Source: a virus
Virus record (IMG/VR): IMGVR_UViG_3300043570_000565
Coordinates: 1-54,717 of that record
Strand: one strand, 5' to 3'
Length of the DNA stretch: 54,717 bases
Part shown: positions 15,864-47,642 of the stretch, one piece after another
Layout of the letters: the number at the start of each line of letters is the position of its first letter
Numbering within the stretch: position 1 is the stretch's first letter
Notes under the pieces: model-generated
Database searches by the model: none
Seen by the model: the letters and a program-made list of their open reading frames with translations, nothing else
Told to the model about the DNA's origin: nothing
Translations under genes and position numbers: made by a program

Positions 15864-16274
15864 ATGGGGATCTTAGTAAGACAACTAAATGAAAGTGACT
15901 ACGATGACATCCTAGTAAAGTGGTGGAATGACTGGGCTTGGGTCGCACCTCAGAGAGATTTCTTACCTGAGAACGGGACCGGTGGCCTAATAGTATTCGA
16001 TGGTGATGAACCAGTTTGTGCAGGGTACATGTACACCACCAACTCAAGTGTTGCTTGGGTGGATTGGATAGTGTCAAGCAAGACATATAGGACAAAGCCA
16101 ACCCGAAAGGAGTGCATAGACTTATTGATCTACACCCTTACTAACATTTGCAAAAACAGTGGGCATAAATATGTATACGCCTTAATAAAGAACAAGAACC
16201 TTGTCAGTACCTACGAAAGTTTTGGATACATTAAAGGGGATTCATATACAGGAGAAATGATAAAAGTATTATAA
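15864..16274 (+). CDS. GNAT-like acetyltransferase-fold protein in the virion block
   Basis: 136 aa. The pattern of beta strands and helices, a central AYMYTT-like strand before SVAWVDWIVSS, and the C-terminal ALIKNKNLVSTYESFGY segment fit the GNAT fold, including the typical helix and strand that close the acetyl-CoA site. It lies between tail and internal-virion genes, where small GNAT proteins are common in phages with unclear substrate; it may be a virion component or modify host protein on entry. A TAAATTTG box overlaps the previous stop (15851-15858) and could start transcription here. Catalytic activity not proven. Confidence 0.6.
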   Translation: MGILVRQLNESDYDDILVKWWNDWAWVAPQRDFLPENGTGGLIVFDGDEPVCAGYMYTTNSSVAWVDWIVSSKTYRTKPTRKECIDLLIYTLTNICKNSGHKYVYALIKNKNLVSTYESFGYIKGDSYTGEMIKVL

Positions 16275-17159: not shown

Positions 17160-18599
17160 ATGGCAACCTACTACAAATATGCTGAGAGGCAGGCTGATAG
17201 TTTTGTAAACTGGGCAGAGATCGGTAAGGATATTACCGAAATGCTTAAGACCGAGACCAATATCCGAGAGGAGAAGAAAGAAGCTATTGACAAAGCATCA
17301 AGGGAATATGGGGAGAAGCTATCTAATGCTCCAACAGGAGAGCATGGGGGAGCTAATCGCTGGACATTAGGATTTGCTAGTGATGCACAGCAAGCACGAT
17401 TACTTCAGGACCGACTACTTAAGTCTGGTGGTCTTAGTGTAAAAGACTATACTGTGATGAGACAAAATATAAGTGATGGTACTGCTAGGTTATTTAATCT
17501 ATCTAAAGAATACCAAGCCCAGTATAAGGAGAAGATGGAGAGGGCTAATAGTGCAGATCCTGCAACTAGGTCTCAGATGTTAGAAACTTTTTTTATGGAG
17601 ACAGCTGAAGGGTTTGCTAACTTCTCAAAATCAAAACCATTAATTAACCCTACAGACTTTTCAATCAGCATTGGTATCATGGAGCCAGACCCTGAGAACA
17701 AAGGAGTCATGAAGCTTACTGATAATGTTCAGACTGTTGAGTACTTAAGCGGTATGATTAATACTAAGTTTAATTACTTTGATATAAATAAATCATCAGA
17801 TGAAATATCAGGTGGATTTGCTAAGTACATTACAGCAGACATAAAAGCTGATAATTTAAATGGAGTTATTACTACTATTGAAGATGCGTTAGCAAGACCA
17901 GCCGCTAAAGAAATACTTAAGAAAAAGGTTAATGCATATCTACAGAATCCATACAACATAAGTTCAATCCTTACTAATGATATCGGAGGATATACATTTT
18001 CTTTTACCGACAAATCTGGAGGTAATGTTATATTTTTAGAGCAGGACCCAGCATCAAAATCAGTAACACCAATATTTACAGATGAACAAAAAGCTGTAGC
18101 ATCAGATTTCTTGACAGGCATATCTATTCAGAAGGTTGCATATGAGGAGCAGTTAAAACCTTTTTCTCTTCAGCAAAGACAAGTAGTAAAGGCTGAAGAC
18201 CCCAAACCTAGTGGGCCTCCTATTAATGTTCAGGAAGCATATTTATCAAGGGTTAAAGAAAAAACAGGATTGAGTGAAGATACTTTTTCAAATAAAAGAT
18301 TAGAGACTGCAAATAACATGAAATCAATTCTTTCTAAAATTCCTAATGGAACTCAACTATCTGTTGAACTAGATAAAGATCCAGAATCTGGGATAATTAA
18401 TCTTAAGGATGGAGATAATGTTATTAAATCATTTTATGTCTATGAAACTAATCCAGAAATTCGTAAAGGATATTTGAATGAATTTACAGAAATCATTTCT
18501 AACTTAGCCGGTACTGATGGGATGATTGACTACCTTGGAAGGACAGGAGGAATGGGACAATCAGGATCAGGTGGAGCAACTGGAGGAAGTTCTAGATAA
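17160..18599 (+). CDS. Probable internal virion/cargo protein
   Basis: 479 aa, mostly helical and polar, ending in a low-complexity Gly/Ser-rich tail (residues about 460-479). Starts 2 nt after the gp14-like protein and precedes the 3054-aa cargo protein. Such proteins travel in the capsid or tail lumen and are ejected with DNA. No catalytic motif recognised. Role inferred from neighbours. Confidence 0.5.
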   Translation: MATYYKYAERQADSFVNWAEIGKDITEMLKTETNIREEKKEAIDKASREYGEKLSNAPTGEHGGANRWTLGFASDAQQARLLQDRLLKSGGLSVKDYTVMRQNISDGTARLFNLSKEYQAQYKEKMERANSADPATRSQMLETFFMETAEGFANFSKSKPLINPTDFSISIGIMEPDPENKGVMKLTDNVQTVEYLSGMINTKFNYFDINKSSDEISGGFAKYITADIKADNLNGVITTIEDALARPAAKEILKKKVNAYLQNPYNISSILTNDIGGYTFSFTDKSGGNVIFLEQDPASKSVTPIFTDEQKAVASDFLTGISIQKVAYEEQLKPFSLQQRQVVKAEDPKPSGPPINVQEAYLSRVKEKTGLSEDTFSNKRLETANNMKSILSKIPNGTQLSVELDKDPESGIINLKDGDNVIKSFYVYETNPEIRKGYLNEFTEIISNLAGTDGMIDYLGRTGGMGQSGSGGATGGSSR

Positions 18600-33694: not shown

Positions 33695-33834
33695 ATGTCG
33701 TTTATTTGTCAGGTTAACTTACTGATACTTAGATGTATGTCGATTATGTTAATTTAACCCCCGTTTACTAGTCAAAGAAACAATAAGTAAACAAGTAGTA
33801 TATATATATATATAGGGAAAAATAAAAACGACAT
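33695..33834. promoter_or_regulatory. Control region upstream of the primase-helicase: inverted repeats, TGTCG motifs and TA run
   Basis: ATGTCGTTT (33695-33703) and its complement AAACGACAT (33826-33834) flank the region. Inside are ATGTCGATTATGTT (from 33737) and a TA run ending in TAGGGAA (33799-33817). The pair TGTCGATTATGTT plus TA-run-GGGAA recurs at 42573-42655 with almost equal spacing (65 and 66 nt). This may be a regulator-binding region or an origin with an unwinding element. Confidence 0.5.
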
Positions 33835-41163: not shown

Positions 41164-41409
41164 TTACCAGTCTATTTCAATCATTACTTTCTCCAACAAT
41201 CTAGATGGCTTGATGTCATTCTCTAAGCATAGGTTGAATACAAATAGTAAGCAATCTACCTTCTTTTTTGGTGCTTCTGGGAATACTTCTCTGAATTTTG
41301 TGAATGGGTTATAGTTACCCAAATTGGTATTGTACTTGTAGTTCATTACCATTTCTCCTTGAATTGCAGTAAACCATAATGCGTTCACTTCTTTTTGTAC
41401 TAATGCCAT
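41164..41409 (-). CDS. Hypothetical early protein just downstream of the hammerhead ribozyme
   Basis: 81 aa from the ATG at 41409 (MALVQKEVNALWF). A longer start at 41436 would lie inside the ribozyme. Residues 40-70 are a helical region with AAs EAPKKKVDCLLFVFNLCLENDIK. Ribozyme cleavage would leave a 21-nt 5' leader before this ATG. No family recognised. Confidence 0.6.
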   Translation of the reverse strand: MALVQKEVNALWFTAIQGEMVMNYKYNTNLGNYNPFTKFREVFPEAPKKKVDCLLFVFNLCLENDIKPSRLLEKVMIEIDW

Positions 41410-41424: not shown

Positions 41425-41478
41425 GGTTAAGACCAATCCGTAGATTGGTTTCGTCTATTCAAGACTCGTCAGTTAACC
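41425..41478 (-). ncRNA. Type I hammerhead ribozyme
   Basis: Minus strand, all core elements in order: stem I GGTTAA (41478-41473) with TTAACC (41430-41425); core CTGACGA (41472-41466); stem II GTCT/AGAC with a TGAAT loop; core GAA; stem III ACCAATC/GATTGGT with a TACG loop, opened by the A-T pair next to the core; cleavage nucleotide C at 41431. Cleavage would fall between 41431 and 41430. Stem I uses the last Gly codon and TAA stop of the gene at 41473. No nucleotide of the required core is missing. Hammerheads are known in phages, but here one separates two operon genes. Confidence 0.88.
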
Positions 41479-42498: not shown

Positions 42499-42572
42499 GT
42501 ACCCCTCATGCCAGATAAACTGTCATGGACTGTACGAAATTATGTCGTGTAACTAGCTGATATCTAGAGTCC

Positions 42573-42655
42573 TGTCGATTATGTTGATTTTTAAAATGAG
42601 TTGTAGTGAGAAAAATATAAAAGAGAGATATTAATATATATATATATATAGGGAA
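42573..42655. repeat. Second copy of the TGTCGATTATGTT / TA-run-GGGAA module
   Basis: TGTCGATTATGTT at 42573-42585 and a TA run ending in GGGAA at 42635-42655, with the same order and nearly the same spacing as at 33738-33819. Another ATGTCG is at 42542-42547. It may be a second regulator or origin element. Confidence 0.6.
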
Positions 42656-42674
42656 GAAGAAGTTTGTCATTCAA

Positions 42675-43107: not shown

Positions 43108-44709
43108 ATGGAACCTAAAGATTTATTTTTCGCCCAGGAGGGCAGGCTAAAGTTAATCTCTGGCATCAAGAAGATTGCTGGAGCGGTCAAGAGTACGTTG
43201 GGGCCATATGGCAACACAGTACTAATTGAGAGTCCTAATCACACGCATGGTATTACTGTAACTAAGGATGGGGTGACTGTCGCTAAGGCTGTTGACCTGA
43301 TTGACCCTGTGGAGAACCTTGCTGTGAAGATGATGAAGGAGGCGGCTGATAGAACGGCTACTGCTGCTGGTGATGGCACGACTACTGCCATAGTGTTGAC
43401 AGAGGGGTTGGTGCTTGGATGGTTGGAGCACATTGGCACTGAGCAGTTAAATAACACTGAGGTGCTGCGCAACATATCTGAGCTGAGTTCAAAAGTGATT
43501 GAGGGGTTGAAGAGGAAGGGCAAGAAGGTGACTAACTCAATGCTGCTTGACGTAGCGACTATCTCTGCGAACAATGACAGTCACATAGGTCGGATCATTG
43601 CTGATGTGTACAAGGAGGTGGGGAAGAATGGCATAGTAACGGTGGAGCGAAGCCAGACTGCTGACACGTATGCTGAGACCACTAGAGGGTTAAAGATTGA
43701 CAGGGGTTACACAAGCCCACTGTTCATCAACGATCAGAGTAGGGACGAGTGCGTGTTTGAGGATGTGCTGGTGCTGGTGGCTGACATTGAGATAAGTAAT
43801 GTGTTGCAGATTGAGAACGTGCTGAAGCCAATCATCCAGGAGGGGAAGAAGCTACTGATCGTATCGCCATGCCACGTGAACGTGGTGAACACCTTGGCGG
43901 CAAACGTGATGAAGAGTAACCTAAAGATGTGCGTGGTTCAACCACCTAGCTTCGGGTACCGACAGCATGAGCTGATGCAGGACCTGGCGGTGAGTGTTGG
44001 GGCAACATACTTCAGTGAGAAGACCGGGGATGACCTGAGTCAAATTACTATTGCTGACCTAGGGCATGCAGCCAGAGTAGTGGTTGGCAAGGACAAGACC
44101 ATCATACTCAAGAGTGACCTCAAGCTCGACACAGTAAAGATTGAAGAGAGGGTACAGCAGCTATGGCAGGCGCATAAGATTGCTAAGAAGAAGGCTGACA
44201 AGGACCATCTGTTGGAGCGAATCGCCTCCCTTACGGGAGGGATAGGTGTGATATACGTAGGTGGGCAGACTGACCTGGAGCAGAAGGAGCTGTACGACCG
44301 TGTTGATGATGCGGTGTGTGCGGTACGATCCGCTCTGGAGGAGGGCATACTACCAGGTGCAGGCAAGGCATTGCTTGACGAGAGTGCAGCACTCATTCCT
44401 ACTGGCAGCTTTCACTATAGCCCTGAGCTGAGTGTGGCGATTAAGATCCTATCCAATGCGATGATGGCACCATTCCAGCAGATCCTAGCAAACGCTGGGC
44501 TCAAGCCTAGTGACGTGTACAAGGAGGCGATGCCTGTGGGGCATGGGTACAACCTAAAGACTGGACAGATGGGTGACCTGATTAAGATGGGTGTGATTGA
44601 CCCGTTGAAGGTGACACGCAGTGCGTTGCAGAACGCTGTGAGTGTAGCGACAACTATATTGAGCACTAACGCCATCATAACTATGGCACGATCATACGAG
44701 ACCAGATAA
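43108..44709 (+). CDS. groEL: Phage-encoded GroEL chaperonin (Hsp60)
   Basis: 533 aa, near full length. ATP-site motifs are in place: LGPYGNTV (residues 31-38), DGVTVAK (54-60), GDGTTT with Asp89 (88-93), ATISANND, and RVDDAVCAVRSALEEG for the catalytic Asp region near residue 380. The C-terminal Gly-Gly-Met tail is missing (ends YETR) and GVVAGGG is changed to GILPGAG. GroEL folds proteins in an ATP-driven chamber with GroES; phage copies usually serve capsid or tail folding. The gene uses many GTG and CTG codons, unlike the rest of the window, and is not in one operon with groES (47385). Confidence 0.95.
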   Translation: MEPKDLFFAQEGRLKLISGIKKIAGAVKSTLGPYGNTVLIESPNHTHGITVTKDGVTVAKAVDLIDPVENLAVKMMKEAADRTATAAGDGTTTAIVLTEGLVLGWLEHIGTEQLNNTEVLRNISELSSKVIEGLKRKGKKVTNSMLLDVATISANNDSHIGRIIADVYKEVGKNGIVTVERSQTADTYAETTRGLKIDRGYTSPLFINDQSRDECVFEDVLVLVADIEISNVLQIENVLKPIIQEGKKLLIVSPCHVNVVNTLAANVMKSNLKMCVVQPPSFGYRQHELMQDLAVSVGATYFSEKTGDDLSQITIADLGHAARVVVGKDKTIILKSDLKLDTVKIEERVQQLWQAHKIAKKKADKDHLLERIASLTGGIGVIYVGGQTDLEQKELYDRVDDAVCAVRSALEEGILPGAGKALLDESAALIPTGSFHYSPELSVAIKILSNAMMAPFQQILANAGLKPSDVYKEAMPVGHGYNLKTGQMGDLIKMGVIDPLKVTRSALQNAVSVATTILSTNAIITMARSYETR

Positions 44710-47384: not shown

Positions 47385-47642
47385 ATGAAAGCTATAGGAA
47401 AAAATATTGTAATCAAATCAATTGACGAGGAAGTAAAGACTTCTTCAGGATTAGTCCTATCTGGTGAGGATACCAACCAATTACGCTACAAGCGTGGAGT
47501 AGTAATCAACTCAGGGACAGAGGTAAGTGCAATCAAGCCAGGAGACAACGTGTACTACGACAAGGCTAACAGCTATGTGATGATCATCAATGATGAGCAC
47601 TGCGTAATTATTCAGGAACGTGACGTAGTTCTTGTCCTGTGA
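47385..47642 (+). CDS. groES: GroES-like co-chaperonin (Cpn10)
   Basis: 85 aa from the ATG at 47385 (the ORF is open upstream, but the promoter box lies there). KNIVIKSIDE then SSGLVLSGED gives the mobile loop with the hydrophobic Leu-Val-Leu tripeptide that binds GroEL, followed by the barrel (KRGVV, IKPGDNVYYDK) and the last strand ERDVVLVL. The roof loop is shorter than in E. coli GroES (85 against 97 residues). Makes a phage chaperonin pair with the GroEL at 43108, though on a separate transcript. Overlaps the converging regulator gene by 35 nt. Confidence 0.88.
   Translation: MKAIGKNIVIKSIDEEVKTSSGLVLSGEDTNQLRYKRGVVINSGTEVSAIKPGDNVYYDKANSYVMIINDEHCVIIQERDVVLVL

Follow-up and report, generated by a model that had tools for sequence, protein, structure and literature searches.

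The analysed stretch of viral DNA (hereafter the window; IMG/VR record IMGVR_UViG_3300043570_000565, 54,717 nucleotides) belongs to a phage of Bacteroidota type, whose portal protein groups it with Flavobacterium (Elemovirus), Cellulophaga, Maribacter, and Tenacibaculum phages and the spring-water genome MW202828. On the minus strand, a leftward operon begins with an open reading frame (ORF) for an 82-amino-acid protein of unknown function (41721–41473), continues with an ORF for an 81-amino-acid protein, also of unknown function (41409–41164), and runs into DnaA-like, SSAP, PD-(D/E)XK, primase, and helicase genes. The first junction of this operon is occupied by a complete type I hammerhead ribozyme of 54 nt (41425–41478, minus strand). 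A sequence-only reading of the window had placed the element exactly at a gene junction of an early mRNA, with the upstream stop codon inside stem I and a 21-nt leader left for the next ORF. Each of these points was borne out: the ribozyme lies between ORF 41721–41473 and the next ATG at 41409, the upstream ORF ends with the TAA at 41475–41473 within stem I, the leader predicted on the downstream mRNA after cleavage spans 41430–41410 (21 nt, minus strand), and the transcript is very probably early, given the DnaA-like, SSAP, primase, and helicase genes of the operon. No relatives of the locus were found through the downstream protein. The upstream protein occurs at 16 loci in viral contigs, of which only one among those searched (L010) clearly carries hammerheads, and cultured phages contained no relatives of this protein and no DNA-level relatives of the junction.

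The window also encodes a GroEL (43108–44709, plus strand; phrog_5725, E 1e-132). Relatives of another ORF (47385–47642, plus strand) adjoin groEL in three genomes (G008, G009, and G002), and MW202828 has an annotated 10-kDa chaperonin beside its groEL; the window ORF may code for GroES. An intergenic repeat of about 112 nt (42550–42661 and 33715–33825, minus strand; 70% identity) contains a (TA)n tract and the shared sequence AACATAATCGACA. One copy lies before the early operon and the other before the primase gene, a location at which relatives have the repeat too; it may be a phage promoter or regulatory element present in two copies.

As read from the minus strand, the ribozyme consists of the 5' strand of stem I (GGTTAA, 41478–41473, pairing with 41430–41425), the catalytic core CTGACGA (CUGACGA, C3–A9; 41472–41466), stem II (GTCT-TGAAT-AGAC, 41465–41453, with GUCU and AGAC paired around the loop UGAAU), the core segment GAA (G12–A14; 41452–41450), stem III (ACCAATC-TACG-GATTGGT, 41449–41432, including the A15.1–U16.1 pair), C17 at 41431, and the 3' strand of stem I (TTAACC, or UUAACC in RNA; 41430–41425), which provides the first bases of the 3' cleavage product. 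The predicted type I cut falls between C17, the nucleotide on its 5' side, and 41430. All positions of the hammerhead consensus core are present (C3, U4, G5, A6, N7, G8, A9, G12, A13, A14, A15.1, U16.1, and H17, here C17) and are surrounded by three helices in type I topology, stems I, II, and III being perfect over 6, 4, and 7 bp, respectively. The minimum free energy (MFE) structure is exactly the hammerhead fold (−16.4 kcal/mol, z −3.3, equaled by 1 of 200 shuffles), which persists in 135 nt of context. A permissive finder covering three topologies returned a single match for the window, whereas 10 shuffled windows gave none, and a covariance model built from 44 family members with the window excluded scored the element at 66.1 bits (E 6e-13) and detected no second hammerhead in the window at E ≤ 10. 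With every core position and all three stems in place, the earlier claim of a complete minus-strand hammerhead was confirmed. The core plus GAAA pattern alone was rejected as a significance test, as it gave 6 matches against 5.3 expected; the significance of the element derives from its three stems and its family. A reading as terminator was also discarded: stem III is followed by CUUAACC rather than by a run of T, and no site resembling a terminator was reported at this position.

At gathering thresholds, Rfam gave no match for the window element. Its best Rfam match at E ≤ 10 was RF03152 (RAGATH-1-hammerhead) with 26.9 bits versus a gathering threshold of 56.3, and RF00163 (Hammerhead_1), with which it has the type I hammerhead core and stems in common, reached only 9.9 bits, also below its gathering threshold. 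RF03152 is alike in its type I-like arrangement and core, but its consensus differs in the stem II region, has a stem I of 5 bp, and includes an additional hairpin at the 5' end; the corresponding letters before stem I do not pair in the window, and such a hairpin was not seen in the family alignments. In ten genomes with these elements, RF00163 had no match over the cut-off and all RF00163 and RF03152 matches stayed below threshold. Likewise, a search of 135 kb containing dozens of these hammerheads at gathering thresholds gave no match, and seven loci of the window's own clade yielded no Rfam hammerhead. A large, strongly covarying phage hammerhead family is thus missed by the gathering thresholds of Rfam 15. 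The weak Rfam score and the single copy in the window would fit a chance or decayed, inactive element, which we regard as extremely improbable because the core is intact, all pairs are standard, the covariance model recognized the element without having been trained on it, and a compensatory change separates it from its closest relative (see below). Judged from its sequence, the element has everything a hammerhead needs for catalysis, and its pairing is maintained by selection.

The family was delineated by two pattern scans. The first pattern prescribed the core, the three inner pairs of stem I and, in stems II and III, only the flanking G-C/C-G pairs. It had at least 120 matches in IMG/VR and 36 stretches in 84,980 species genomes, many of the latter in Legionella and others in Pedobacter, Mucilaginibacter, and Aquimarina; three of these 36 (L152, L159, and L172) form no stems and look like chance. 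All three stems were formed in 168 of the 193 distinct matches listed, compared to 0.02% in shuffles. Covariation in related phages, proposed as a check by the sequence-only reading, proved overwhelming: among the 193 matches listed, the pairs left unfixed by the pattern (I4–5, II2–4, and III3–6) were paired in 93–99% versus 38–57% after reshuffling of partners, and all four Watson-Crick pairs were used. One alignment (A1) had been picked for having stems, and its pair counts were therefore not used as evidence. The pattern of the second scan specified the core and loop II alone and left the stems free. It yielded at least 129 distinct matches, of which 126 had a paired stem II and 121 the full type I fold. 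The resulting geometry is strict. In the first scan, the seventh position of stem I was an A.A opposition in 159 of the 193 matches listed, so that the stem ends at 6 bp; among the matches listed in the second scan, stem I measured exactly 6 bp in 120 of 121 and was bordered by an unpaired A on both sides (5', 119 of 120; 3', 120 of 120). Stem II has 4 bp and a loop with the consensus UNANU, and stem III is often long (5–15 bp). The invariant A flanks, the exact length of stem I, and the UNANU loop suggest that loop II makes a tertiary contact with the A-flanked end of stem I. The idea that all family members have a UAA in this stem was rejected, since the TAA had been imposed by the first pattern and occurred in only 36 of 121 matches listed in the unconstrained scan. 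Several matches in Legionella and its relatives (L154, L163, L158, L167, and others) combine a longer loop on stem II with a short stem III and seem to follow another sub-architecture than the window's phage family. In three cases (L018, L127, and L128), near-identical hammerheads, partly with near-identical leaders, are found at several junctions within a genome, a pattern suggesting that ribozyme-leader units were duplicated or underwent gene conversion.

The intergenic position is fixed as well. Among the matches listed in the second scan, an upstream stop codon lay between −12 and +8 of the stem I start in 89 of 104 (8% for random points), the commonest stop of the upstream ORF being the UGA of the CUGA core, and an ORF starting with ATG began at most 60 nt from the cut in 94 of 110 (31% for random points; median distance 27 nt). 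In 16 loci with several copies the strands were never mixed. Grouping of the 119 downstream proteins gave 106 families; the proteins have a median length of 84 amino acids, and nearly all lack a known function; the few with an identity are GP88, MazG, and anti-restriction proteins. A link of the ribozyme to one gene family was rejected on these numbers. The position of the stops, often on conserved ribozyme bases and in the window inside stem I, would suit a translation-coupled switch, in which a ribosome that finishes translating the upstream gene opens stem I together with the core and blocks cutting, so that cleavage affects mainly messages whose upstream gene is poorly translated and the ribozyme acts as a translation sensor. 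However, tight gene packing alone would place stops there, not every family member has the UAA in stem I, and no feature ties cutting to a particular gene or signal. Such a sensor therefore appears unlikely, though it is the strongest of the alternatives considered.

To cover the window's own clade, 80 primase relatives were fetched regardless of ribozymes, 44 of which included at least 7 kb upstream of the primase gene. In these 44 loci the permissive finder detected 36 matches on the coding strand and one on the other strand, compared to two in shuffled DNA. Two of the 36 (L344 and L350) were discounted as they lie downstream of the primase gene, seemingly in coding sequence. About 34 hammerheads remained (27 of type III and 7 of type I), all on the early coding strand, and the non-coding strand of the 44 loci contained no credible hammerhead; by our count of finder and covariance model matches, 19 of the 44 loci have at least one. 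The type III copies have a stem I of 8 bp in all 24 distinct cases and mostly NAAA as loop II, and the first ATG follows the ribozyme at a median distance of 23.5 nt. A genome syntenic with the window (G008; portal 80%, primase 71%, and GroEL 66% identity) contains eight consecutive type I copies between groEL and the replication genes. L010, which was found via the upstream gene, carries one type I copy, additional copies whose stem II is weaker at two more junctions according to our reading, and a type III copy with an extra U after the core (RF00008, 32.2 bits, below the gathering threshold of 48.5). This type III copy directly follows the homolog of the window's upstream gene, and the two topologies thus occur at the same joint.

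These type III copies bear on the proposal that the ribozyme stabilizes 3' ends, with stems II and III replacing a terminator and shielding the upstream mRNA from 3'–5' exonucleases. A type I ribozyme does leave both hairpins on the upstream product, and stem III is often 5–15 bp long, but in the type III copies of this clade the catalytic hairpins stay with the downstream product, so that 3' stabilization cannot be the shared function; for the window element we rate this explanation as improbable, somewhat more so than the translation sensor. Six close relatives of the window (L277, L279, L281, L283, L284, and L285) and MW202828 lack the element. Its absence from near relatives shows that the element is dispensable, and ribozymes of the window type are easily gained or lost. 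The loss of stems I–III in related genomes had been named beforehand as an observation that would speak against the ribozyme; the stems are kept via compensatory changes where the ribozyme is present, although several near relatives lack it altogether.

The closest relative of the window (L276, primase 97%) aligns with it up to 41731, then only over 41479–41411 (88.9%), and again from 41093 on. This island comprises the ribozyme and the leader and ends 2 nt before the ATG, whereas both genes flanking it differ. It is also present in two other loci (L278 and L309), where tblastn found neither of the window's neighbor genes. Stems I and III are identical in the window and L276, the window's stem III being identical only in L276 among the loci compared, and in stem II a U-A pair is replaced by A-U with pairing retained. 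Homologous islands were found at 30 of 38 hammerhead junctions versus 43 of 251 others; as the motif itself is conserved, these numbers are no proof of orthology. An isolated homologous island between non-homologous genes, together with the near-identical copies that recur within one genome, could also mark a recombination joint or mobile repeat, where the ribozyme persists as a short stretch of homology or a mobile unit and cleavage is incidental. DNA homology would not need stems kept by compensatory changes, however, and the occurrence of two unrelated topologies at equivalent joints, the strands that are never mixed, and the intact cores, which are the rule, further argue against this origin, which we deem very unlikely.

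Among cultured phages, Flavobacterium phage elemoF_6-3D (NC_055853) has a type I match between gp65 and gp67 (16041–16105, E 3.5e-6) and a type III copy (RF00008, 36.3 bits) before gp59, the first gene of a leftward operon. The Elemovirus ribozyme region is present in 68 records. Depending on the strain, stem II reads GACU/AGUC (as in elemoA_7-9A), GGUU/AACC (as in elemoC), or, mismatched, GACU/AACC (elemoF). These differences among near-identical phages amount to compensatory evolution. An ORF, gp66 (16030–16137, plus strand), is annotated antisense over the type I ribozyme of NC_055853. Most Elemovirus records checked have an ORF annotated over the ribozyme, the elemoB record has none there, and gp66 and its counterparts probably are not genes. 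A long, structured-looking 5' leader (L183 5422–5600, minus strand; about 17921–18100 in NC_055853) separates a Bacteroidota-like promoter (TATATTTG) from the type III hammerhead; this leader had no convincing match among Rfam families.

The downstream genes are unrelated and the type I and III copies leave their hairpins on opposite products, so that the common denominator is the cut together with a constant leader. This favors constitutive segmentation of the transcript with insulation of exchangeable early genes. Under the proposed mechanism, the 54-nt element would fold during early leftward transcription and cut its own transcript between 41431 and 41430. By hammerhead chemistry, a 2',3'-cyclic phosphate would follow the ribozyme hairpins at the end of the upstream message; the downstream message would begin with a 5'-OH and the constant, A-rich leader of 21 nt before the AUG. 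The ribozyme would serve as a joint at which the polycistronic early message is split into independent units, and the 5' end of the next gene would be standardized whatever gene lies upstream. With its single copy, the window element alone does not divide the operon gene by gene. The sequence-only reading had envisaged an expression switch; no sign of ligand- or protein-dependent control was found, and the joints precede more than 100 unrelated downstream gene families. Many unrelated families and two topologies at like places fit constitutive cutting better than gene-specific switching. We thus consider it probable that the element cuts itself co-transcriptionally and constitutively and thereby splits and insulates early-gene cassettes; cleavage in vivo and a benefit from insulation are inferred, the insulation from conservation and by analogy.

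The early genes of phage T7 are transcribed into a polycistronic RNA, from which defined mRNAs arise when the host enzyme RNase III cuts it between genes. These sites likewise divide an early transcript between genes, but T7 employs a host protein for this purpose, whereas the window RNA would cut itself. RiboJ, a self-cleaving ribozyme placed upstream of a gene in E. coli, insulates this gene and raises its expression (PMC6206723). It is an engineered part in front of a gene, whereas the window element, a putative insulator, is natural and lies inside an operon between genes. By this analogy, the window ribozyme would be a natural counterpart of both the RiboJ insulator and the RNase III cuts of T7. 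Prophage hammerheads of types I, II, and III that flank single genes or short blocks of varying genes have been described, arrays of them cut themselves while being transcribed in vitro, one of these arrays in E. coli as well, and the processing of long phage transcripts was proposed as their role already in 2011 (Perreault et al., 2011; PMC3088659). What hammerheads do in prokaryotes and their phages was called an open question in a review of 2017 (PMC6155905). The flanking of variable prophage genes, the transcript-cutting proposal, and the activity as such are therefore already known since 2011. The prophage hammerheads and the window family both flank variable genes in phage DNA, but the latter belongs to Flavobacteriia phages mostly not reported as prophages, has a 6-bp, A-flanked stem I and a UNANU loop II, conserves the ribozyme and leader between swapped genes, and interchanges types I and III at one joint. 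Some overlap of its members with Dataset S1 of the 2011 study (PMC3088659) is possible. A literature search of partial coverage revealed no later description of the family, and as far as checked, the strict architecture, the ribozyme-leader island between swapped genes, the interchange of types I and III, and the Elemovirus case are new.

The window thus leads to a hammerhead family with strict geometry, strong covariation, and a fixed intergenic place. Elemovirus on Flavobacterium sp. BAL314 offers a cultured host-phage system in which the role of such hammerheads is directly testable, with strains that differ by compensatory change and one that has a mismatched stem. A broader reading, which we put forward tentatively and at somewhat less than even probability, is that early-gene modules of these phages are joined by self-cleaving ribozymes, so that the ribozyme and its leader stay while genes are swapped and types I and III interchange, and each incoming gene would obtain a defined 5' end independent of host factors. 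If this is true, natural ribozyme insulation underlies the turnover of early-gene cassettes.
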